54,656 nucleotides of DNA from Chloroflexota bacterium (GTDB lineage: Bacteria > Chloroflexota > JAJPGV01): positions 1 to 54,656 of the forward strand of contig JAJPGV010000021.1 in NCBI GenBank assembly GCA_021325635.1, given 5' to 3'. Under the pieces are notes generated by a model. It was not told the origin of the DNA, ran no database searches, and worked only from the letters and a program-made list of their open reading frames with translations. Shown here one piece after another: positions 105 through 53,255 of this stretch. A program made the translations under genes and the position numbers. The first letter of the stretch is position 1, and the number at the start of each line of letters is the position of its first letter.

Positions 105-247
105 AGGGTCGAGGGTCTAGGAGTGACCTGTCCCTCGACCCTCGACCCTGAACCCTCGACCCTTTTCCTCGACCCTGAACCCTCGACCCTGACCCTCGAC
201 CCTGAACCCTCGCCCCTCAACCCTCGACCCTGAACCCTCGCCCCTCC
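105..247. repeat. Heptanucleotide array 1 (CCCTCGA/CCCTGAA) with an inverted first unit
   Basis: From about 132 the + strand is an imperfect 7-bp tandem array of CCCTCGA, CCCTGAA, CCCTCAA and CCCCTCG units. Its first unit is flipped: AGGGTCGAGGG at 105-115 is the exact reverse complement of CCCTCGACCCT at 132-142, so an 11-bp stem with a 16-nt loop can form. The array ends 2 bp from the stop codon of the leftward crotonase gene. Confidence 0.9.
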
Positions 248-249
248 AC

Positions 250-1068
250 CTATTCCCCCTGCCACGAGGGAGGGCGTTTTGCGAGAAAAGCGTCCACGCC
301 TTCGTGGAAGTCGTGGGAGAGGTAGCAGGTCAGGATGAGGTCGTCGTCCGGACCCTCGGGAACGAGGCGGTCGCGGATCAGGCGAAGGGATGCTTTGCTG
401 ACGCGCAGCGTGAGCGGGGCGTTGGCGGCCACTTCCGCGGCGAGGATCGAGGCTGCAGGCCAGAGATCGCCGTCGGCCGGAACGACGGAGCGGATGAAGC
501 CGCGCTGCAGAAGCTCGGGCGCCTCCAGCAGGCGGGCAGTGAGGAGCATGTCCTTGACCAGGCCCAATCCAAGGGCCCCAACCAGGCGGGCGCAGGCGCG
601 CAGGGACAGGCAGTTGCCCAGGGTGCGGGCGATTGGGACCCCGTAGCGCACCGAGGGGGCAGCCAGGCGCAAGTCGCAGCAGGCGGCGATGACGGCGCCG
701 GCGCCGGTGCAGGGACCAGCCAGGGCAGCAATGACCGGGACGCGAACGGACTCCAGGACGTCCATGACCGCCGACCCGCGAGCCTCGTAGTCGATCGCAT
801 CCTGCGGGGCGTTGAACGCTCGGAATTGAGCGATGTCAGTGCCGGCGGCAAAGGCGCCGCCTGCGCCGCTGAGTACCATGGCGCGTATCGAGCTGTCGGC
901 GTTGACCTCTTCGCAAACCTCGACCAGCTGCTCGTACATCGCCCAGGTAAGGGCGTTACGGGCGTGGGGACGGTTGAACACGGCCCACTGGATGGCGCCG
1001 TCTCGGAGGAGGACGAGCTGGCCATGGTCCGGGTTGATGGCTCGCAGGCGCTCGAGAATGTCGGTCAT
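250..1068 (-). CDS. Enoyl-CoA hydratase/isomerase family protein (crotonase)
   Basis: 272 residues from ATG 1068 (MTDILERL). An upstream in-frame start at 1146 would add an unlikely leader; the complement carries a GAGGGAG ribosome-binding site about 14 nt before 1068. The crotonase fold is clear: the substrate-binding stretch NRPHARNALT, the first oxyanion-hole segment FAAGTDIAQF, and the second glycine-rich segment AGPCTGAGAVIAACCDLRLA. The family hydrates or isomerises acyl-CoA thioesters in the cytoplasm, and the substrate cannot be read from sequence. The gene is divergent from the LUD gene, and its stop lies against heptamer array 1. Confidence 0.85.
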   Translation of the reverse strand: MTDILERLRAINPDHGQLVLLRDGAIQWAVFNRPHARNALTWAMYEQLVEVCEEVNADSSIRAMVLSGAGGAFAAGTDIAQFRAFNAPQDAIDYEARGSAVMDVLESVRVPVIAALAGPCTGAGAVIAACCDLRLAAPSVRYGVPIARTLGNCLSLRACARLVGALGLGLVKDMLLTARLLEAPELLQRGFIRSVVPADGDLWPAASILAAEVAANAPLTLRVSKASLRLIRDRLVPEGPDDDLILTCYLSHDFHEGVDAFLAKRPPSWQGE

Positions 1069-1209: not shown

Positions 1210-1860
1210 ATGCTTGATCCCAGCGTGGCGGCTTACCAGCGTACGCTGGCGAACACGCTCATCCCGGTGCTGGCGCGGCGGAACATCGCCACGCACTACT
1301 GCCCGACGGGCCAGGAGGCCGTCAAGCTCATCCTGGACATGATCCCGGATGGCGCCAGCGTGATGGCGGGCAGCTCGACCACGATGTACCAGATCGGTCT
1401 GGAGGACGCGTTGAACGCCGAAACGCGCTTCGACTACATGCGTACCCGCGTCCGCGGTCACAGCGATCCGGAGCTGCGCAGCGAGGCCCGCCGCCACTCA
1501 ATCGTGGCGGACGTCTTCCTGGGCGGAGTCAACGCCATCAGCCTGACGGGAGAGCTGGTGTGTGTCGACGCCGGCGGAAATCGCGTGGCAGGCTTTGCTT
1601 TTGGGGGCAAGAAGGTGATCGTGGTCGCCGGGGTGAACAAGATCGTCTACACGCTCGAGGAGGCGATTGCTCGCGTGCGGCGGGCAGCAGTGCAGGAATC
1701 GTTTCGCCTAGACCGGCATCCACCGTGCCTGCCGGACGGCATCTGCCGCAACTACGAATGCTTTCCGCCGGAGCGAGAGTGCGGCAAGCTGCTGATCATC
1801 GAGAAGGACATTCCGGGGCGCATCAGCCTGGTGCTGATCGAGGATTTCCTGGGATTCTGA
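1210..1860 (+). CDS. LUD-domain protein (LutC/YkgG-like)
   Basis: 216 residues. ATG 1210 has GGAG 8 nt upstream; GTG 1207 is an alternative. The LUD fold is recognisable from the early GASVMAGSSTTMYQIGL segment and the diagnostic GGVNAISLTGELVCVDAGGNRVAGFAFGGKKVIVVAGVNKIV block around residues 102-145. A cysteine-containing tail (CLPDGICRNYECFPPERECGK) follows. Relatives take part in lactate utilisation (LutABC), but no LutA or LutB partner is present, so the role is open. A TACAAT -10-like box lies at 1129-1134. The stop is followed at once by the start of the next gene, indicating an operon. Confidence 0.8.
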   Translation: MLDPSVAAYQRTLANTLIPVLARRNIATHYCPTGQEAVKLILDMIPDGASVMAGSSTTMYQIGLEDALNAETRFDYMRTRVRGHSDPELRSEARRHSIVADVFLGGVNAISLTGELVCVDAGGNRVAGFAFGGKKVIVVAGVNKIVYTLEEAIARVRRAAVQESFRLDRHPPCLPDGICRNYECFPPERECGKLLIIEKDIPGRISLVLIEDFLGF

Positions 1861-1861
1861 G

Positions 1862-3085
1862 GTGAGCCGCAGCTGCGCCTCCCTCCTGGAGCCGGACTGC
1901 CCCATCCCGCGGGCGCACCAGCGGCTCGAGGACGCCCACCGGCTGTGGCACCAGACAGCAGACAGCTATGCCGACCCGGCCGCCTTCCGGGAGGGGCTCA
2001 ACAGCACGTTGCAGGCGTTGCGCGGTGGCACCTTTGCGCTGCAGCAGCAGACGCGCGGCGGGCGGGACTTCGCGACCTGGCGCGACGCCTGGCACAACCG
2101 CATCCGCGCCGATGCCGTTCTGAGCTGGCTGGTTCAGCACCATCGTCACCGGGTGGAGGACGATGACCTGGCGTCGGCCAGCAAGGCGCGGGTGGCGCTG
2201 CGGACCATGCCCGACGGCCCGGCGCTGGCGGAGTTTTCGGTGCCGCCGCTGCTGCCTGCCGAGCTGATCCCGCAGCAGCTCAACGACAGCCGCATGGGAC
2301 CACTCGTGCGTGAAGCAACAGTGATGGTGCTGGAGCGGCAGTGGGCGGCCGGCGACCTGCCAGGCTGGGAGCTGCTGGAGGCGCTGGCGCACTGCTACGC
2401 GGCGCTGGCGGAGCCACTTCAGGAAGCGCACGCTCAGTCCTGCGGCGGCCAGCAGTCGCCGACGCCCGAGCCAGGCACGGTACTGCCGGGCCTCCCGCCA
2501 GGCCAGCCTGAGTGCATGAAGGTGTCGGCCAGGACCAAGACGGCGGTGTTCCGGCTGGAGCAGGGACGAGTGCTGGGGCCGGCCCCCGAATCGTTGGACG
2601 AGAGCGACGTCGAACAGGCGCATGCCGGCAACGATGGACGAGGGGAGATCGACGAGCCGGATCTGCCGCCCAAGAAGGATCCGCTGCGTCGGGTCGCGTG
2701 GTATTTCGAGGACGCGCGCCGCAAGCTGCAGGCGGAAGGCTCGTACGCCCAGAGGGTAAGCATCTGGGTGCCCGGCCAGGAGTGGCTGTCGATGGTGCTG
2801 ACGCCGGCCGATACGCAGGATCGCTACCTGCTGTGGAGCCGGGTGGCCCAGGAGGTAGAGCGGACTCGGGCTGAGGCGGTCATGACCATCTTCGAGATGG
2901 GGGCTCGCCGGCCCGGCGAGGGCCAGCGCCTGGTGCTGGCAGCCGAAACAGCCGGACGCGCGCACCGAACCTTCATCGCATCCTTCGAACGCAGGGGCGC
3001 TGAGGTCCGCTTGGGGCGCACCCGCGTCGAGGAGGATGGGCGGCGCTGGTATTTCCTCGATCCCGTACGGGCAGTTTGGAAGTGA
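1862..3085 (+). CDS. Conserved hypothetical protein
   Basis: 407 residues from GTG 1862, one base after the LUD stop, so probably translationally coupled. The first ~100 residues (IPRAHQRLEDAHRLWHQTADSY, LNSTLQALRGGTFALQQQ, RIRADAVLSWLVQ) look like an all-helical region known from bacterial proteins of unassigned function. The middle is low-complexity, rich in Pro, Gly and Gln. The C-terminal third is mixed alpha/beta and ends RRWYFLDPVRAVWK. No catalytic motif, signal peptide or membrane segment is visible. The stop codon sits inside a short GAGTGAA-type repeat. Confidence 0.65.
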   Translation: MSRSCASLLEPDCPIPRAHQRLEDAHRLWHQTADSYADPAAFREGLNSTLQALRGGTFALQQQTRGGRDFATWRDAWHNRIRADAVLSWLVQHHRHRVEDDDLASASKARVALRTMPDGPALAEFSVPPLLPAELIPQQLNDSRMGPLVREATVMVLERQWAAGDLPGWELLEALAHCYAALAEPLQEAHAQSCGGQQSPTPEPGTVLPGLPPGQPECMKVSARTKTAVFRLEQGRVLGPAPESLDESDVEQAHAGNDGRGEIDEPDLPPKKDPLRRVAWYFEDARRKLQAEGSYAQRVSIWVPGQEWLSMVLTPADTQDRYLLWSRVAQEVERTRAEAVMTIFEMGARRPGEGQRLVLAAETAGRAHRTFIASFERRGAEVRLGRTRVEEDGRRWYFLDPVRAVWK

Positions 3086-3112
3086 AGAGTGAAAGGATGA
3101 AACCAATCGCGC

Positions 3113-3811
3113 ATGGCTAACACTGAGACGCAGCTTCGGGAAGACGTGGCGGCAGCCAATCGGATAGTGGAGCGCTTCGGGCTGTCCAATGCCTTCGGGC
3201 ATGTGAGCGCCCGAATCCCGGGAACGAACACGTTCATCTTCCCGACGCGGCGCAGCCCCGCGCTCGCCGATGCCAATAGTCTGCTGGTGCTGGATACCGA
3301 CGGCAACCGCCTGGCGGGCGATGGGGAGCCCAACAGCGAGTTCTGGATCCATGCGCGGCTGTACGCCGCGCGGCCTGACGTGAACGGCGTGGTGCACGCC
3401 CATCCACCGGCATGCGTGTGCCTGACCCAGATTGGCCAGCCGCATCGTGTGGTCCACAACAGCGCCGGCATGTACGGCGAGGGGATTCCGGAGTACGAGC
3501 GCATTGGCCTGATCCGCACGCGCGAGCTGGGCGATGCGCTGGCCAAGGCGCTGAGCTCTTCACCTGCCGTGATGATGCGCGGTCACGGCATAGCGGTCGC
3601 CCAGCCGGACGTGCGCAAGGCCACTGTCGCGGCCTGTTTTTTGGAAGAAAGCGCGGACCTGCAGCTGCGCATGCTGGCCGCCGCCGGCGGGGACGCCAGC
3701 AGGCTGCGGGCCTTCACTGCCGAGGAGTCGGCCCGCGTGGGCGACCAGATTGCCGGTCCGCCGGCCGAACGGGCCTGGGAGTATTACGCCTGGTGCGCCA
3801 CCAAGCGCTAG
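3113..3811 (+). CDS. Class II aldolase/adducin family protein
   Basis: 232 residues from ATG 3113, 27 bp after the preceding gene. The family signature is present: FGLSNAFGHVSARIPG near residue 22, the zinc-binding HAHPPACVC near residue 98, and the later metal histidine in MMRGHGIAVAQ. Members cleave sugar-phosphate or related aldols, or decarboxylate related compounds, with a divalent metal. The substrate is not evident. The gene is convergent with the gentisate-dioxygenase-like gene, so a link to that pathway is contextual only. Confidence 0.85.
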   Translation: MANTETQLREDVAAANRIVERFGLSNAFGHVSARIPGTNTFIFPTRRSPALADANSLLVLDTDGNRLAGDGEPNSEFWIHARLYAARPDVNGVVHAHPPACVCLTQIGQPHRVVHNSAGMYGEGIPEYERIGLIRTRELGDALAKALSSSPAVMMRGHGIAVAQPDVRKATVAACFLEESADLQLRMLAAAGGDASRLRAFTAEESARVGDQIAGPPAERAWEYYAWCATKR

Positions 3812-3832
3812 GAGCGCGAGGCTGGCCGGCCC

Positions 3833-4939
3833 CTACGACGCCGGAGTGAAGGTCGAGGTCGCAGGCTGGTGGCCGCCGTCGGTGGCGTAGGTTTCTTCGC
3901 GGTACAGGGCCAGCGCCTGAAGCACGGGAGCGTCGCTGGCGGCGAACAGGATGGCGTCGCCGCCGTCCGCGGCGTGCTCCTGCCAGCACCACGTGGGCAC
4001 GACGAAGGTGTCGTCCTGCTCCCAGTCGAAGCGCTGACCATTCAACACGCTGTGTCCCCGGCCCTGGGCCACGTGGTACAGCGTGTTGGTCATGTTTCGC
4101 TTCGCCTGAGTGTGCAGGCCCGCCGTCAGCAGGTGCATTGACGCGCTGATGGTGGGCATCACCGGACCGCCGGTGAACGGATTGGAGAAGGTCAGGGCGT
4201 AGCCCTCGGTCGGGCTGGCGGAATAGTCCGTGAGCCGGTACAGCGCCTCTTTGGTGGCCGGGAACTTGTAGGCGAACAGCGGCGAGTAGGGCGCGTCCTG
4301 CCGGCCCATCCAGTGCGGCAGCAGGGAGCCGGTTCCGAAACGTCGCAGCGAGTCGTCGCGCGGCTTGTCTGCCGGCTGCAGCGTCTTGGGCTCGGAGTAC
4401 TCCTCGTAGAACTGCCAGTTCAGCCCGCGCACCAGTGGCACGTCCAGCACGTCCATCCACACCATGTTCTCGGGACCTTCATGCGCATGGCCATGCCAGC
4501 ACCACGAGGGCGTAAGGACGAAGTCACCGGGCTCCATGGTGAGCGGCTGGCCGTTGACGATGGTGTAGCCGCCCTGTCCCTCGATGATGTAGCGCAGCGC
4601 CGCCATGGTGTGGCGGTGGCTGGGGGCCTGCTCGCCTGGCTTGACCAGCTGCATGGCCGCCAGCAGCGTACGGGACGAGCCGTGGTTACTGGCCGGCAGG
4701 GTTGGGTTGCGCATGGTCAGCACGCGCCGGTCTGCGCCGTCACGGCCCACGGGCATGACCTCGCAGGCCTCATACATGTTGGCCCGCATCTGCTTCCAGG
4801 GCCACAGCCAGGGCAGGACCTCCCCGGTTGGTTCCGAGGCATTGACGGAGGTGTTGAGCCACAGCGGTCGCAAGGACTGCCTCTCGACCCGCTCGTAGAA
4901 CGCCTTCAGCCGAGCATCCGGTTCAACGGCAACTGCCAT
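3833..4939 (-). CDS. Gentisate 1,2-dioxygenase-like bicupin
   Basis: 368 residues from ATG 4939, behind a strong ribosome-binding site (AAGGAGG on the complement). The N-terminal cupin carries the iron-ligand region SHRHTMAALRYIIEGQG and the later histidines of WCWHGHAHEG. A second cupin follows from about residue 240 (TKAEM-like region HTQAKRNMTN, then WCWQEHAAD). This layout fits gentisate 1,2-dioxygenases, which open the ring of gentisate to maleylpyruvate with Fe(II). 1-Hydroxy-2-naphthoate or salicylate 1,2-dioxygenases are close alternatives. No maleylpyruvate isomerase is in the window. The flavin oxidoreductase and hydrolase upstream on the same strand may belong to one catabolic unit. 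Confidence 0.85.
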   Translation of the reverse strand: MAVAVEPDARLKAFYERVERQSLRPLWLNTSVNASEPTGEVLPWLWPWKQMRANMYEACEVMPVGRDGADRRVLTMRNPTLPASNHGSSRTLLAAMQLVKPGEQAPSHRHTMAALRYIIEGQGGYTIVNGQPLTMEPGDFVLTPSWCWHGHAHEGPENMVWMDVLDVPLVRGLNWQFYEEYSEPKTLQPADKPRDDSLRRFGTGSLLPHWMGRQDAPYSPLFAYKFPATKEALYRLTDYSASPTEGYALTFSNPFTGGPVMPTISASMHLLTAGLHTQAKRNMTNTLYHVAQGRGHSVLNGQRFDWEQDDTFVVPTWCWQEHAADGGDAILFAASDAPVLQALALYREETYATDGGHQPATSTFTPAS

Positions 4940-4999
4940 GGTGCGACCTCCTTCGTCGGTTGGCCCTAGTGTACGCCTGCCGAATGCCCTCGCGCCGGA

Positions 5000-6163
5000 T
5001 CAGGCGAGGGCCAGCGCCTCGGACTTGCCCGACGGCTGCGCGCCCAGGTGCTTGATCGCGGGATACACCTCCTTGGCGAACAGCTCCATGCTGCGGCGGG
5101 TCTTCTCCGGTGACATGAAGCCGGCATGGTTCATCATCAGCAGGTGGCCGATATTGCAGCGCTCGTGCAGGTAGGTGATCTTCTCGATCATCGTGTCCGG
5201 GCTGCCGGCCAGCACGATGCCCTTCTCCTGTAGCTGCTCGAAGCTGTCGCGATAGGCCTTGCCGGCCGTGCCCAGGATCTGCTTGGCCAGCACCTGCGGT
5301 GGTAGGTAGCCCGGAGGCGCATTGAGCTGCGGGTGCCGTTCGCGGTACAGGTACCACAGCAGGTTCTTGCCGTAGTCGGCCGCCTCTTCGTCGGTCTCGG
5401 CGGTGTAGCACAGCGCCAGGTAGGCAAACTTGTCTGGGCCAGGCTCGGGGAAGCCGAGCTCCGCGCTGCGCTGGCGATAGGCGTTGACCAGGCCCTCGGT
5501 CCATTCGTAGGGCGTCAGGAAGCAGGCGTAGGTGTACTGCCGCTCGGCCGTCCAGGTCACGCTGTCGGGCGTCGATCCCGTGATCCAGATCGGTGGGTGG
5601 GGCTGCTGGTAGGTGCGCGGCCACACGTTGACATAACGGTGTTGCCAGAAGCGGCCCTCCCAGTTGAACGGTTCGGGCGTGGTCCAGGCCCTGACGATGA
5701 GGTCGTGCGCCTCTTCGAAGCGCTGTCGGGTGAGCACGGGATTGGTATTGGCCGGCTGAATCTCGGTCGGCACGCCGCGCACGAAGCCGGAGATGATGCG
5801 CCCGCGTGACATGCAGTCCAGCATGGCCAGCTCTTCAGCCACGCGCACCGGGTTGTCGCGGTGCGGCAGGGGCGAGCCGAGGATGCAGATCTTGGCGCGC
5901 TTGGTGCGCTGGATCAGCGCCGCGGCGGACAGCGGCACGGTCACGTCCAGGCAGGTCATTGTCTGGTGGTGCTCGTTGAGCATGATCTCCAGGCCGAGCT
6001 CGTCGGCGTAGACGTAGTCGTCCAGGTAGCGCTCGTACAGCTCGGCCACAATCTTCGGATCGCAGTAGCTGTTGGGCACGATGACACGAGCCGACTTGTA
6101 CTCCTTTTCAACCTCCTCGGGCACGTAGGGGTACGGCATCTCGGTGAAGTGATAGGCCAGCAT
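5000..6163 (-). CDS. LLM-class flavin-dependent oxidoreductase
   Basis: 387 residues from ATG 6163, preceded on the complement by GGGAGAG. The luciferase-like TIM-barrel pattern is clear: LGLEIMLNEHHQTMTC, the catalytic-loop region ICILGSPLPHRDNPVRVAEELAMLDCMSRGRIISGFVRG, and a C-terminal domain with IVLAGSPDTMIEKITYLHERCNIGHLLMM. Members use FMNH2 (sometimes F420) for oxygenation or hydride transfer. The substrate is not predictable. It lies 60 bp upstream of the dioxygenase gene on the same strand, and the hydrolase at 6210 precedes it, suggesting a three-gene degradation operon. Confidence 0.85.
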   Translation of the reverse strand: MLAYHFTEMPYPYVPEEVEKEYKSARVIVPNSYCDPKIVAELYERYLDDYVYADELGLEIMLNEHHQTMTCLDVTVPLSAAALIQRTKRAKICILGSPLPHRDNPVRVAEELAMLDCMSRGRIISGFVRGVPTEIQPANTNPVLTRQRFEEAHDLIVRAWTTPEPFNWEGRFWQHRYVNVWPRTYQQPHPPIWITGSTPDSVTWTAERQYTYACFLTPYEWTEGLVNAYRQRSAELGFPEPGPDKFAYLALCYTAETDEEAADYGKNLLWYLYRERHPQLNAPPGYLPPQVLAKQILGTAGKAYRDSFEQLQEKGIVLAGSPDTMIEKITYLHERCNIGHLLMMNHAGFMSPEKTRRSMELFAKEVYPAIKHLGAQPSGKSEALALA

Positions 6164-31241: not shown

Positions 31242-31700
31242 CCGAGGCGCGCGGGGGCAGGGGGCCGGGAGCCGGCGGAGTGCGGAGTGCCGAGTGCCGA
31301 GTGCCGAGGCGCGCGGAGCACGGAGCGCACGGGGGCCGGGGGCCGGGGGACGGGGGCCGGAGGAGTGCCGAGTGGCGGAGGAGTGCCGAGTGGCGGAGGA
31401 GTGCCGAGTGCGGAGTGCCGAGTGCCGAGGCGCGCGGAGCGCAGGGGGGTAAGGGGCTGGGGGCTGGGGACCGGCGGCGCGGCGAGTGGCGGCCGAGTGC
31501 CGAGTGGCGGCCGAGTGCCGAGTGGCGGACGAGTGCCGAGTGGCGGACGAGTGCCGAGTGGCGGACGAGTGCCGAGTGCGAAGTGCCGAGTGCCGAGGCG
31601 CGCGGCGCGCGCGGGGACAGGGGGCCGGGAGCCGGCCGAGTGTCGAGTGCGGAGTGGCGAGCGCGGAGGCGCGCGGAGCGCGGAGCGGGTGGGGGTTGGG
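31242..31700. repeat. Composite GAGTGCC/GAGTGGC repeat block between pyrC and carA
   Basis: About 460 bp of the + strand consist of GAGTGCC heptamers, 18-bp units such as GAGTGGCGGACGAGTGCC, and G-rich stretches (GGGGGCCGGG). These are organised in about four super-units, each closing with a GAGGCGCGCGGAGC-type segment (near 31306, 31428, 31596 and 31665). No plausible gene lies here; the open frames are repeat translations. It forms nearly all of the gap inside the pyr operon. Confidence 0.9.
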
Positions 31701-31717
31701 CGATCATCAGACCAACT

Positions 31718-32929
31718 TCAGCTGGCAATGGCGGCCTCCCGCAGGGCGTCGTACACGACCCGGCCGCGGCAGATGGTGAGCATCACCCGGCCGCGAAGCG
31801 TGTGGCCGTGCAGCGGAGTATTCCTGCCCCGGCTGTGCAGGCGGGCCGCGTCCACGGTCCACTCCGCGTCCGGATCCACCAGCACCCAGTCGTCCGCGGG
31901 CAGATCCAGGCCCAGCACGGCAGCCGGACTGCGGGTCAGCTTGTCCACCAGCAGGTCAAAGGGCAGCTTGCCGGCGTGGACCAAGCCCATCAGCGAAGCG
32001 AACGCCGTCTCGATGTTGGAGATGCCGAACGCTGCCTGTTCGAACTCGCAGGCCTTGTCGGCCATGGCGTGCGGCGCATGGTCGGTGGCGATGGCGTCGA
32101 TGGTGCCATCCAGCAGCCCTTCTATCAGCGCCAGTTGGTCCCCTTCCGAGCGCAGCGGCGGGTTCACCTTGCAGTTGGCGTCGTATGCGCCGCGCTCGAT
32201 CCATTCGTCGGTGAGGGTGAGATGGTGCGGGGTCACCTCCGAGGTGACGCGGATGCCGCGGCGCTTGGCGTCGCGGATGACCTGCACGCTGCCGGCGCTG
32301 CTGACGTGGGCGATGTGCACCCGCGCGCCGGTTTGCGCCGCCAGCGCAACGTCTCGAGCGACCATCACCTCCTCGCCCGCGGCCGGCCAGCCGGGCAGCC
32401 CCAGGCGCTCCGACACCTGCCCCTCGTGCATGGCGCCGCCCTTGGTCAGGGCCGGGTCCTCGCAGTGGTCGATGACCACCCGCCCGAAGCTGTTGGCGTA
32501 CTCCAGCGCGTGGCGCATCATGCTGCTGCTGGCGACCGGGCTGCCGTCGTCGGAGAAGGCCACCGCCCCGGCGGCGGCCAGCTCGGCCATGTCGCTGAGC
32601 TCCGCGCCGCGCCGGGCGCGCGTCACCGCGGCGATGGGCAGCACCCGTACCACGGCTTCCTGGCGGGCGATCTCCACGACGTGCTGCAGCGTGCCCACCG
32701 TATCGATGGTTGGCTCCGTGTTGGGCATGCAGCACACCGTGGTGAAGCCGCCCGCGGCGGCTGCCAGCGTGCCCGTGGCAATCGTCTCCTTGTGCTCGAA
32801 GCCGGGCTGACGCAGGTGGCAGTGCAGATCCACGAAGCCGGGCAGCAGCACCAAGCCCCGCCCGTCGACGACCTCCTCGCTGCCCTCCAGCCGCACGTCC
32901 GCGCGGTTGCGCAGGTTCCTAATCAGCAT
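31718..32929 (-). CDS. pyrC: Dihydroorotase (class I)
   Basis: 403 residues from ATG 32929 (MLIRNLRNRADV); TTG 32935 is an alternative. Amidohydrolase metal motifs: DLHCHLRQPGFEHKET, the later VVIDHCEDPAL and VHIAHVSSAGSVQVI, and the Asp in DAIATDHAPHAMADK. It closes carbamoyl aspartate to dihydroorotate with zinc. Length and the LRQPG motif fit the class I enzyme that often associates with PyrB. It lies between pyrB and carA on the same strand, separated from each by repeat arrays. Confidence 0.96.
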   Translation of the reverse strand: MLIRNLRNRADVRLEGSEEVVDGRGLVLLPGFVDLHCHLRQPGFEHKETIATGTLAAAAGGFTTVCCMPNTEPTIDTVGTLQHVVEIARQEAVVRVLPIAAVTRARRGAELSDMAELAAAGAVAFSDDGSPVASSSMMRHALEYANSFGRVVIDHCEDPALTKGGAMHEGQVSERLGLPGWPAAGEEVMVARDVALAAQTGARVHIAHVSSAGSVQVIRDAKRRGIRVTSEVTPHHLTLTDEWIERGAYDANCKVNPPLRSEGDQLALIEGLLDGTIDAIATDHAPHAMADKACEFEQAAFGISNIETAFASLMGLVHAGKLPFDLLVDKLTRSPAAVLGLDLPADDWVLVDPDAEWTVDAARLHSRGRNTPLHGHTLRGRVMLTICRGRVVYDALREAAIAS

Positions 32930-32950
32930 GCACAACCCCCATCACGTGGA

Positions 32951-33046
32951 ACCCCCCTGCCCCCGGCCCCAACCCCGCGCGCCCCGCGCCTCGGCACCCG
33001 GCACTCGGCACTCGGCACCCGGCACTCGGCACTCGGCACTCGGTAC

Positions 33047-33049
<3 letters not shown>
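32951..33049. repeat. CGGCACT (GAGTGCC-class) repeat between pyrB and pyrC
   Basis: The + strand carries CTCGGCACCCGGCACTCGG-type heptamers (32985-33048) preceded by CCCGCGCGCCCCGCG. It is the same composite repeat as at 31242 but in the opposite orientation. The pyrB stop TGA (33047-33049) is built from the first repeat unit (T+GAGTACC on the complement). Confidence 0.88.
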
Positions 33050-41039: not shown

Positions 41040-41312
<273 letters not shown>

Positions 41313-41315
<3 letters not shown>

Positions 41316-42146
41316 ACGATCCGGCCTCTTGTACTCCGCGTTGGTGCCGCCGCTCTGCGACTTGAGGTAATCCTCCACGTGGGCCAGCGGGTCCACCGCC
41401 AGGCGCTGGCGCGAGCCCAGCAGCCAGTCCAGGTGGATGGCCTGCGGCAGGCTGAGGTCGCGGCCCAGCTGCGCGGCGATCTTGGCGTTCTGCAGCGGCG
41501 CCAGGTGCCGCGAGCCGATCTCCCGCGCCAGGTCGGTCGTGGCCTGCTCCAGCTCCTCTTCGGGCACGGCCAGCGACACCAGCCCCAGCCGGTCCGCCTC
41601 CTCGCCGCTGATGTTCCGCCCGGTGAACTGAATCAGCGCCGCCTTCTTGTGCGGGATGACGGAGTGGTACAGCGTGCTGGTGGCCATCTGGCCGAAGCTG
41701 CCGCGCAGGATCTCGGGCATGCCCAGCTGGGCGTTGGCGGCGGCAACCACCAGGTCGTGGCTGTTCATGAAGGCCAGCGCGCCGCCCAGGCAGTAGCCGT
41801 GCACCTGGGCGATCATCACCCTGGGGAAGGCGCGCACCGCCTCGAACAGCTGGGCCGTGACGCTGGGCCGGTCCCAGTCGCGCGGCGGGCCTTCGCTGGC
41901 GCCGCGCAGGTAGTACAGGTCCAGTCCCGAGCTGAACGACGGCCCGCTGCCCTTGGTGACGACGGCCTTGATGTCGGGCCTGGCGCGCACGATCTCCAGC
42001 GCCTCCAGCATGGCCTCGGCCAGGTCCGGGTTGAGGGCATTGCGCTTCTCCGGGCGGTTCAGGATGACCCGCGCCGCGCCGCCCCCTTCGAGCTCCTCCA
42101 GGATCAGGACCGGCCATTCACGGATGACGCGCCAGCTGTCGGGCAT
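41313..42146 (-). CDS. Enoyl-CoA hydratase/isomerase family protein
   Basis: 277 residues from ATG 42146 behind GGAGGAGGAG. Crotonase motifs: VILNRPEKRNALNPDLAEAM, the first oxyanion segment PSFSSGLDLYYLRG, QVHGYCLGGALAFMNSHDLVVAAANAQLGMPEILRGSFGQMATS, and the C-terminal NISGEEADRLGLVSLAVPEEEL. The Glu pairs expected in true hydratases are not evident (GGALAFMNS), so an isomerase or related thioesterase role is as likely. Its stop codon comes from the adjacent repeat array. It is divergent from the methyltransferase gene. Confidence 0.85.
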
Positions 42147-43904: not shown

Positions 43905-44318
43905 ATGAGTGCGAACGAGCCACGTCCGGTTGGGGTCAGCCATGTGAGCCTGCGGGTCCGCGACCTGGAAGCCTCGCGGCGTTTCTACCAGGACGTGCTG
44001 GGCTTCGACGTGGAGCGCTCGGCGCCCGATCGTTACCGCTTCTGGGTGGGAGCCACACGCATCATCTTACGCCCACCGCTGCCTGGCACGGCCGCGGACG
44101 ACCGCTTCAGCGAGCGGCGCATCGGGCTCGACCACCTGGCCCTGGCCGTTGACGGCCCTGCTGCCCTGGACGCTGTGCTGGCTCGTCTGCGCGCTGCTGG
44201 CGTGCCGTCGGAGGGTATCCAGGAGCTGCCGCAGTTCGGCGCCTGCTTGGTGTGCTTTCGCGATCCGGACAACGTGCAGTGGGAGTTCTACACCGACCAG
44301 ATCGAGCCGCCCCGCTAG
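43905..44318 (+). CDS. VOC (glyoxalase/dioxygenase-fold) family protein
   Basis: 137 residues from ATG 43905 (MSANEPRPVGVSHVSLRVRDLEASRRFYQDVLGFDVE). The paired beta-alpha-beta-beta-beta VOC fold shows metal-ligand positions at H14 (SHVSLRV), the later His in IGLDHLALAV, and Glu in VQWEFYTDQIE. It may be a glyoxalase, dioxygenase or fosfomycin-type enzyme; the substrate cannot be told. It is divergent from the TIGR01777 gene and convergent with mutL, sharing CTAG stop codons with mutL. Confidence 0.85.
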   Translation: MSANEPRPVGVSHVSLRVRDLEASRRFYQDVLGFDVERSAPDRYRFWVGATRIILRPPLPGTAADDRFSERRIGLDHLALAVDGPAALDAVLARLRAAGVPSEGIQELPQFGACLVCFRDPDNVQWEFYTDQIEPPR

Positions 44319-46075
44319 CGCCGCCCGAACTCGCGCTCCAGCTGCGCCTGCGAAAAGTGCACCATGGTCGGCCGGCCGTGGGCGCAGGCCTGCGGCGACC
44401 AGCAGCGCTCCAGCTGGGCGATAAGCGCATCCATCTCCTCGGCCGACAGCTTCTGCCCGGCGCGCACCGCGGTGTGGCAGGCCAGGGAATGCTCGGCCGC
44501 CTCGTCCCAGCCTTCGGACGCGCTCTCGGCCGACAGCTCGTCGAGCATGGCCGAGATGGTCTCCCGCGCCGCCGGCAGCGGCAGGGCCGCCGGCACCGAT
44601 CGCAGCAGGTAGGTGCGGTCCCCGAACGGCTCCAGGTCCAGCCCCAGGCGCGACAGCGCCGGCCGGGCGGCCTCGGCCGCGGCCGCCTGCGCCGGCGAGA
44701 CCTCGACCGTCAGCGGCTGCAGCAGCAGCTGCGCGTCGGGCGCCTGGCCGGTGTCGTTGGCGCGCGAGCGCTGGATCTCGTCCAGCCGCACGCGCTCGTG
44801 GGCCGCGTGCTGGTCGATCAGGTACATTCCGCCCGGCCCCTCGGCGATGATGTAGGTCAGCGCCAGCTGCCCCAGCACGCGCAGCATGGGCAGGGCCTGG
44901 AAGGCGTTGGCGGGAGCAGTGCCAAGTGCCGGGCGCGGGCCGCCGAGGTCCTCCAAGCCGTGAAATCCCGGCCCCCACTGGGGGCCTACGGCCGCGGCGC
45001 CGGCGGTGGGCCACACGGTCTCCGTGTCCTCGGCACTCGGCACCTGGCGCTCGGCGCTGCCGGATGGGTCAGCCCTGCCGATCACCGTCAGCGGCGCGTA
45101 GCGCGCTACCGCGCCGTGCACTGCCTGGTGCACGCGGGCGTACACCAGGCGCTCGGCGGCGAACTTGACCTCGGCCTTGCTGGGATGGACGTTGACGTCC
45201 ACCTGGGCGGGATCGAGGTTGATGTTGATCACCGCCAGCGGGTGGCGGCCGACCATCAGCAGCGAGGCGTAGGCCTCCTCGATGGCATGCAGCAGCTGCC
45301 GGCCCTGGATCCAGCGGCCGTTGACGAACAGCGACAGGTAGCCGCGGCTGGAGCGGCTGACCCGCGGCTCGCTCACATAGCCGCGCACCTGCAGGCCGTC
45401 GTTGCACTCCGCCGGCAGCATGCCACGGGCCACCTCGGGCCCATACAGGCGGGCAATCACGTCCAGCAGGTCCCCGCTGCCGCTGGACTGGAACACCGGC
45501 TTGCCGTCGGACAGCAGCGTGAAGCCGATGCCGGGATAGGCCAGGGCGAAGTGGCCCACCACGCGGGTGATCTGTCCGCCTTCGGCCAGCGGCGATTTCA
45601 GGAACTTGAGCCGGGCGGGGGTATTGAAGAACAGCTCGCGCACGCTCACCGTGGTGCCCGGCGGACAGCCCGCCGGCGCGTGCTCCAGCACCTCGCCGCC
45701 CGACAGCCGGATGCAGCCGCCGCTGCTCGCACCCGCCGCGCGGCTGGTCAGCGTCACCTGGGCTACCGCGGCGATGCTGGGCAGGGCTTCGCCACGAAAG
45801 CCCAGCGTGGCTACTACCGCCAGGTCGTCGATGGAGGTGATCTTGCTGGTGGCGTGCCGCTCGAAGGCAACCGGCAGCTCGGCCAGGGGGATGCCGCCGC
45901 CGTTGTCGGCGATGCGCAGCAGGGAAATGCCGCCATCCTTGATCTCGATGCGCACGTCGGTGGCCCCGGCGTCGATGGCGTTCTCGATCAGCTCTTTGGC
46001 GACTGACGCCGGCCGCTCCACCACCTCGCCCGCCGCGATCTTGGCAGCGCTGGCCGCATCGAGGGCGCGGATCAT
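44315..46075 (-). CDS. mutL: DNA mismatch repair protein MutL (endonuclease type) with repeat-derived linker
   Basis: 586 residues from ATG 46075 (MIRALDAASAAKIAAGEVVERPASVAKELIENAIDAGA); TTG 46174 would add 33 non-conserved residues. The N-terminal GHKL ATPase has DNGGGIPLAEL and GFRGEALPSIAAV. The C-terminal half has the endonuclease motif LIDQHAAHERVRLDE (Asp where the last Glu is usual), ACHTAVRAGQKL and ACAHGRPTMVHF. The linker, about residues 338-386, contains two oppositely oriented fragments of the GAGTGCC-class repeat (45028-45060, 44917-44940), read in frame. MutS is not in the window. Confidence 0.93.
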   Translation of the reverse strand: MIRALDAASAAKIAAGEVVERPASVAKELIENAIDAGATDVRIEIKDGGISLLRIADNGGGIPLAELPVAFERHATSKITSIDDLAVVATLGFRGEALPSIAAVAQVTLTSRAAGASSGGCIRLSGGEVLEHAPAGCPPGTTVSVRELFFNTPARLKFLKSPLAEGGQITRVVGHFALAYPGIGFTLLSDGKPVFQSSGSGDLLDVIARLYGPEVARGMLPAECNDGLQVRGYVSEPRVSRSSRGYLSLFVNGRWIQGRQLLHAIEEAYASLLMVGRHPLAVININLDPAQVDVNVHPSKAEVKFAAERLVYARVHQAVHGAVARYAPLTVIGRADPSGSAERQVPSAEDTETVWPTAGAAAVGPQWGPGFHGLEDLGGPRPALGTAPANAFQALPMLRVLGQLALTYIIAEGPGGMYLIDQHAAHERVRLDEIQRSRANDTGQAPDAQLLLQPLTVEVSPAQAAAAEAARPALSRLGLDLEPFGDRTYLLRSVPAALPLPAARETISAMLDELSAESASEGWDEAAEHSLACHTAVRAGQKLSAEEMDALIAQLERCWSPQACAHGRPTMVHFSQAQLEREFGRR

Positions 46076-46202: not shown

Positions 46203-46389
46203 AGAGGAAAGAGTGAAGAGTGAAGAGTGAACGCCACTCGGCTCGCCTCCGCGTCCCGCGGCCTCGACCCTGGACCCTGAACCCTGGACCCTGGACCCTC
46301 GACCCTGAACCCTCGACCCTAAACCCTCGACCCTAAACCCTCGACCCTAAACCCTCGACCCTGAACCCTCGACCCTCGACCCTGAACCC
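46203..46389. repeat. Mixed repeat block (GAGTGAA plus CCCTGAA/CCCTCGA/CCCTAAA)
   Basis: Three GAGTGAA units (about 46209-46230) are followed by a CACTCGG/CCTCCGCGTCCCGCGG segment resembling the composite repeat. A C-rich heptamer array then runs from 46262 to 46389. The last unit runs straight into the -10 box of the fabZ-like gene. It combines all three repeat classes at one locus, between divergent mutL and fabZ-like genes. Confidence 0.9.
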
Positions 46390-46395
46390 TACAAT
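46390..46395 (+). promoter_or_regulatory. Leaderless -10 box of the FabZ-like gene at the array edge
   Basis: TACAAT lies 7 bases before the GTG start at 46403, too close for a ribosome-binding site. The preceding base is the last C of the heptamer array, so any -35 region lies inside the repeats. Confidence 0.5.
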
Positions 46396-46865: not shown

Positions 46866-46965
46866 TCAACCCTGAACCCCTCGCCCCTGAACCCTCGCCC
46901 CTCGACCCTCGCCCCTGAACCCTCGACCCTGAACCCTCGACCCTGACCCCCAACCCCCATCCTCC
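46866..46965. repeat. Heptanucleotide array 7 (CCCTGAA/CCCTCGA/CCCCTGA)
   Basis: About 100 bp of C-rich units on the + strand begin 1-2 bp after the FabZ-like stop and fade into C-runs. A TACAAT box at 46986-46991 for the next gene follows. Confidence 0.88.
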
Positions 46966-49308: not shown

Positions 49309-49480
49309 GAGTGAAGAGTGAAGAGCGGGTCCCCTGACCCTGAAAGCTCGACCCTAAACCCTCGACCCCAAACCTCGACCCTCGACCCCAAACCTGAACC
49401 CTCGACCCTAAACCCTCAACCCTAAACTCTCGACCCTCGACCCTAAACTCTCGACCCTCGACCCTAAACTCTCGACCCTA
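49306..49480. repeat. Repeat array 8 between convergent genes (GAGTGAA plus CCCTAAA/CCCTCGA)
   Basis: Starts with the stop TGA and two GAGTGAA units, then C-rich heptamers (CCCTAAA, CCCTCGA, CTCTCGA) to 49480. The TAG stop of the leftward M24 gene (49478-49480) is the CTA of the last CCCTA unit, so this single array provides or touches both stop codons of a convergent pair. Confidence 0.92.
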
Positions 49481-53125: not shown

Positions 53126-53255
53126 CCTGGCCCTCGACCCTCAACCCTCGACCCTCAACCCTGAACCCTGAACCCTCGACCCTCAACCCTCAACCCTCGA
53201 CCCTCAACCCTGAACCCTCAACCCTGAACCCTCAACCCTGAACCCTCGACCCTCA
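53126..53255. repeat. Heptanucleotide array 9 (CCCTCGA/CCCTCAA/CCCTGAA)
   Basis: About 130 bp of 7-bp units, C-rich on the + strand, fill the gap between the two solute-binding genes. The TGA stop of the upstream gene (53253-53255) is the TCA of the last CCCTCA unit on the + strand. Confidence 0.94.

Follow-up and report, generated by a model that had tools for sequence, protein, structure and literature searches.

The window, a stretch of 54,656 nt (contig C30) from a 4.64-Mb Chloroflexota assembly for which the nearest genomes compared share only the phylum, carries a mutL gene whose product contains the sequences DQHAAHER, ACHTAVRAG and CAHGRP, which we take to be endonuclease-type MutL motifs. 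The best named relatives of this protein are encoded by Chloroflexota MAGs and are about 50% identical to it. Pfam matches to HATPase and DNA_mis_repair (207-322) reach residue 322, and MutL_C spans residues 401-543. An AlphaFold2 model built on an alignment of 30 MutLs has high confidence in either half of the protein; pLDDT falls below 50 at residues 329-336 and 338-392, where disorder is predicted, and the main low-confidence stretch, residues 338-392, is flanked by values above 90. By both Pfam and the model, the GHKL ATPase, DNA_mis_repair and MutL_C domains are uninterrupted, in agreement with an earlier note on this DNA, which described the flanking ATPase and C-terminal domains as intact. 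The features of the gene are as follows.

44318-46075, minus strand: mutL, 586 amino acids, with the endonuclease-type motifs named above
44900-45091, minus strand: interdomain linker, residues 329-392, placed from the AlphaFold2 model and Pfam boundaries
45028-45058, minus strand: heptad arm 1, about four copies (AGCGCCG AGCGCCA GGTGCCG AGTGCCG AG(G)), protein SAERQVPSAED
44918-44938, plus strand: heptad arm 2, about two copies (AGTGCCA AGTGCCG GGCGCGG), read on the minus strand as RPALGTA
44970-44986, no strand assigned: perfect short palindrome GGCCCCCACTGGGGGCC between the arms, which together with them gives a predicted hairpin

The two arms have opposite orientations and are both read in frame, within linker residues 338-392; the earlier note had recognised them as two GAGTGCC fragments, and the peptides it named, VPSAED and PALGTA, are present. 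Matches to AGTGCCGAGTGCCG with at most one mismatch lie at 44918-44931 (plus strand) and 45031-45044 (minus strand), 113 nt apart, and the minus-strand piece runs on through degraded copies to 45058. The arms are short and degraded, with only about two perfect copies in this mutL, and the period-7 self-similarity of the array is moderate (score 10.5, codon-shuffle p = 0.004). We nonetheless consider the array call secure, because it rests on the match to a genome-wide GAGTGCC family and not on the period-7 score alone. When a 151-bp mutL query was searched against the DNA of its own genome, it matched dozens of GAGTGCC arrays (E about 5e-5), nearly always over positions 45029-45059; the inter-arm DNA did not recur elsewhere in the genome in this search. 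Judged by these matches, the linker holds what reads as the degraded remains of the GAGTGCC heptad repeat of this genome, probably captured in the lineage of this MAG itself.

The GAGTGCC family in its own genome

Within the window, AGTGCCGAGTGCCG is matched 22 times with at most one mismatch, versus 0.08 matches expected by chance. Apart from the two in mutL, all of these matches (20 of 22) lie in the carA-pyrC-pyrB gaps (31279-33047), bearing out the earlier description of the family as one that fills the pyr intergenic gaps; Pfam identifies CarB, CarA, DHOase, ATCase and a PyrR-like protein in this neighbourhood. Two arrays of opposite orientation are found there.

31279-31659, plus strand: intergenic GAGTGCC array in the gap between the pyrC-like gene and carA, with an 18-nt higher-order unit
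32992-33047, minus strand: intergenic GAGTGCC array in the gap between the pyrB-like and pyrC-like genes, in the opposite orientation

Genome-wide, the 14-mer GAGTGCCGAGTGCC has 128 matches with at most one mismatch (57 + 71), versus three (1 + 2) for a reversed control. A GAGTGCC 17-mer occurs 32 times in this genome and only twice in total in 399 other Chloroflexota; across the 400 genomes, GAGTGCC arrays are abundant in this one only and absent or single-copy in the rest. Conservation of the same linker sequence in distant relatives whose genomes have no such repeats, which the earlier note had named as evidence against capture, was not seen: the linkers of distant relatives lack this sequence. 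With its 7-nt period, its dispersed and mostly intergenic copies and its sporadic, lineage-specific distribution, the GAGTGCC repeat fits the class of dispersed heptanucleotide (STRR/LSSR-like) repeats.

Most GAGTGCC array clusters in this genome are intergenic, and in-frame arrays are also found in genes for a DUF2298 membrane protein, a spermine-synthase-like protein, an Lhr-type helicase, YfhO and a CobN-like protein. The helicase gene (1555-6132 of locus L226, on contig C23 of the same genome) carries a paired opposite array in frame, as mutL does, between its DEAD_assoc and winged-helix domains. Loss of mismatch repair was rejected as a cause of the arrays, since this genome also has a full-length MutS frame (895 amino acids).

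Other heptads occur in the same genome. A second, telomere-like family, ACCCTNR (ACCCTCG, ACCCTGA or ACCCTAA), lies in intergenic gaps and, within this window, always on the plus strand; matches to its triple unit number 170 genome-wide, and the control gave none. A GGGGGCC class is present but rare (3 + 8, versus 2 + 3 for the control). Period-7 arrays are strongly clustered by region, with 12 in the 54-kb contig versus five in 400 kb sampled elsewhere. The ACCCTNR arrays in the window are the following.

132-250, plus strand: ACCCTNR gap array
41050-41317, plus strand: ACCCTNR gap array
46262-46390, plus strand: ACCCTNR gap array
46870-46965, plus strand: ACCCTNR gap array
49348-49479, plus strand: ACCCTNR gap array
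53131-53255, plus strand: ACCCTNR gap array

Heptad arrays in other MutL linkers and in control proteins

Translated repeats of quite different sequence are found in the MutL linkers of other Chloroflexota, for example SDQLSVNSDQLSVNSEQ. We scored period 7 in linker DNA against codon-shuffled linkers, taking p <= 0.004 as significant; genes in this census were called with a simple hexamer model, and the genomes, without exception assemblies, include many MAGs. Of 61 diverse MutLs, about nine have a significant score, including the mutL described here and those at loci L069, L073, L075 and L076, all four of which lie outside the family considered next. In one family, f6 (the family of genome G054), 58 of 85 MutL linkers are significant at period 7, whereas periods 4-6 and 8-13 are significant in only 0-7 of the 85; significance was judged linker by linker, and the f6 genomes are related, such that these counts are not independent events. 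Within the linker, the f6 arrays occupy the second half, at a median relative position of 0.72. Arrays in MutL linkers are short and mostly degenerate, with a longest perfect run of four copies. The 58 f6 arrays fall into 50 consensus unit classes, a number inflated by the noise of short arrays.

Turnover of these arrays is visible among close sisters, which can have different heptads at one place (L155/L158 and L163/L165). The earlier note had suggested looking for length differences in 21-bp steps between close relatives. In the analogous arrays of f6, to which this comparison applies, the expectation held for two pairs that differ by exactly 21 nt and are among the closest length-variant pairs (L163/L164 and L019/L153, with 96% and 93% N-terminal identity), but not for other pairs, whose length differences are not divisible by 7 owing to the exchange of entire blocks. 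The heptad in a mutL gene tends to be one that is found elsewhere in that genome: AATCGTN occurs elsewhere in 12 of the 13 genomes that have it in mutL, versus 37 of 72 otherwise (p = 0.006), and three other long frames of G054 resemble its MutL linker. In the mutL gene of L069 (2228-2323 and 3012-3036), heptads occur just before the start codon, in the N-terminal half and in the linker, and include two adjacent arrays of opposite orientation. The mutL gene of G071 is split between two contig ends (L377 and L378) in the heptad region of the linker; nearly the same sequence, inverted, occurs at both ends (AGATTTGTTGC[AG]TAATTG), the pattern expected after insertion of an IS.

Low-complexity linkers of other f6 proteins gave a different picture. 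Period-7 arrays were not detected in the region after DnaX domain III (0/30), in SSB (0/30) or in the FtsZ C-terminal linker (0/29); strong arrays, with a score of at least 9, are present in 53 of 85 MutLs versus none of 89 controls (Fisher p about 1e-22). Apparent DnaX arrays in L293, L297 and L310 were discarded because they precede the start codon, and those near residue 215 in L283 and L297 because they correspond to a conserved coding motif. The MutL linker is therefore a heptad hotspot relative to these three control proteins, and the earlier remark that a repair gene is a striking location has a firmer basis than this one example implied, given the recurrence in MutL linkers of other lineages. 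Heptads do, however, enter genes other than mutL. In genome G336, 13 of 334 genes (about 4%), MutL among them, have an array score of at least 9, versus two of 334 after codon shuffling.

Origin of the linker arrays

We propose that heptads grow locally in a permissive MutL linker with the reading frame kept by selection, without the repeat needing any current function, a reading to which we assign a probability of roughly 80%. Both the seeding of short arrays and their growth would come about through replication slippage, template switching or the copying of one array from another. Such arrays would persist in mutL if the linker accepts nearly any sequence that preserves its length, flexibility and frame, with selection purging variants that introduce stop codons or a net shift of frame. 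Since a 7-nt unit does not divide into whole codons, a surviving array is read through all three frames, with a period of 21 nt in DNA and 7 amino acids in protein. The linker of Escherichia coli MutL is functional, and shortening it abolishes roadblock bypass (PMC6902014); such a loss would explain why linker length is retained. Tolerance alone leaves the array-free linkers of DnaX, FtsZ and SSB, which are also low-complexity, unexplained. Base composition or amino-acid constraint may be the reason that they lack arrays.

An alternative is that the arrays are contingency switches: gain or loss of a 7-nt unit would shift the mutL frame and drop the C-terminal endonuclease and dimerisation domain, producing reversible mutators. 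Besides the frame-shifting length of the unit, this would fit the far greater frequency of arrays in MutL than in the three control linkers, the mutL gene of G487 (L374, about 1384-1482), which is frameshifted at a CAGTNNN linker array, and the mutL switch demonstrated in Salmonella, which uses three 6-bp repeats (PMC2955026). Nevertheless, the G487 frameshift is the sole example, from a single MAG, and could be an assembly error, and genes outside DNA repair carry arrays too. Slippage should be slow in arrays that are so short and degenerate, and nearly all sampled mutL genes are intact; for these two reasons we do not prefer the switch, and think it unlikely. A bolder form of the idea would make the Chloroflexota MutL linker a favoured and perhaps selected site for lineage-specific heptad arrays, serving as a slow and reversible mutator switch that each lineage re-invents from a heptad of its own genome; we consider this improbable to the same degree.

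The paired arms invite two further explanations, both of which we doubt more strongly. Insertion of a transposable element, MITE-like or similar to the Rickettsia palindromes, with inverted arms would account for the two opposite arms in mutL. It is also consistent with the order GAGTGCC...GGCACTC in all six pairs of opposite GAGTGCC arrays less than 700 nt apart, and with inverted 12-nt arms in 19 of 85 f6 MutL linkers versus 2-10 codon-shuffled ones. On the other hand, the arms of a pair lie anywhere between about 80 and 1300 nt apart, the number of copies is freely variable, and many arrays have no partner. The inter-arm DNA of mutL is unique in the genome-wide DNA search, and it is this lack of a core common to the copies that led us to reject a mobile element as quite unlikely. 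Where the earlier note spoke of a repeat "mobile" enough to enter genes, the entry into genes is borne out by the arrays in other genes, but the non-recurrent inter-arm DNA argues against a transposable unit. Alternatively, the paired arms may form a hairpin that acts in the transcript, or otherwise serve in RNA or DNA structure or binding. The convergent order of paired arrays could point this way, as could the predicted folding of the arms and palindrome in mutL, which is modestly stable (z = -2.5, with three of 200 shuffles as stable); for so GC-rich a sequence such a z is weak, and the arms are imperfect, and we regard a structural role as very unlikely. Lastly, a GC-rich linker might resemble the repeat by chance or composition, given that linkers are low-complexity and that the period-7 self-score of this mutL is only moderate. 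At the level tested, this is refuted by two one-mismatch matches within 120 bp, where 0.08 would be expected in the whole 54-kb window, and by the similarity to other arrays (E about 5e-5), such that a chance origin is barely credible.

With its repeated colonisation by heptads, the MutL linker offers a natural assay for how heptad repeats arise and spread. Mismatch repair controls the instability of repeats, which raises the question of whether MutL is itself exposed to such instability. The linker appears to capture, time and again, repeats that in principle might turn DNA repair off, and they would act on a working part of the protein, because the E. coli linker is functional (PMC6902014).

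Comparison with known repeats

Heptad repeats dispersed through genomes have been described before, as have repeats within proteins; the repeated colonisation of the linker of one conserved repair protein by unrelated heptads appears to be new. Our literature search on heptads in Chloroflexota returned nothing on MutL linkers, the related finding being the satellites of Chloroflexus (PMC6749651). TAACTGA heptanucleotide repeats occur in Beggiatoaceae, Cyanobacteria and Bacteroidetes, where copies in ORFs belong mostly to hypothetical proteins or to the termini of proteins (PMC4679880), and Chloroflexus aurantiacus has a heptamer satellite, GATAGRA (PMC6749651). The repeats described here resemble these in being 7-base, lineage-specific, dispersed and mostly intergenic, with some copies in ORFs. 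Indeed, the CAGTTAT unit of several Chloroflexota MutL linkers is TAACTGA (PMC4679880) read on the other strand. The units of the present genome are instead GAGTGCC and ACCCTNR, and, unlike the ORF copies of TAACTGA-type repeats (PMC4679880), Chloroflexota heptads return repeatedly to the internal linker of a single housekeeping gene.

Rickettsia palindromic elements are likewise dispersed selfish repeats found in frame within housekeeping proteins, but they are about 150 bp long and form recognisable families (PMC10969869), whereas here there are heptads of varying number and no conserved element. As with the tandem repeats of Borgs, the repeats in ORFs make or occupy disordered regions and evolve fast; Borg ORF repeat units are all divisible by three (PMC9879509), whereas the heptads are read through three frames. 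The mutL switch of Salmonella also consists of short tandem repeats within mutL, but in that case three perfect 6-bp copies lie at a fixed site and switching was observed by experiment (PMC2955026), whereas the arrays described here are degenerate 7-bp copies in the interdomain linker, where switching is hypothetical.
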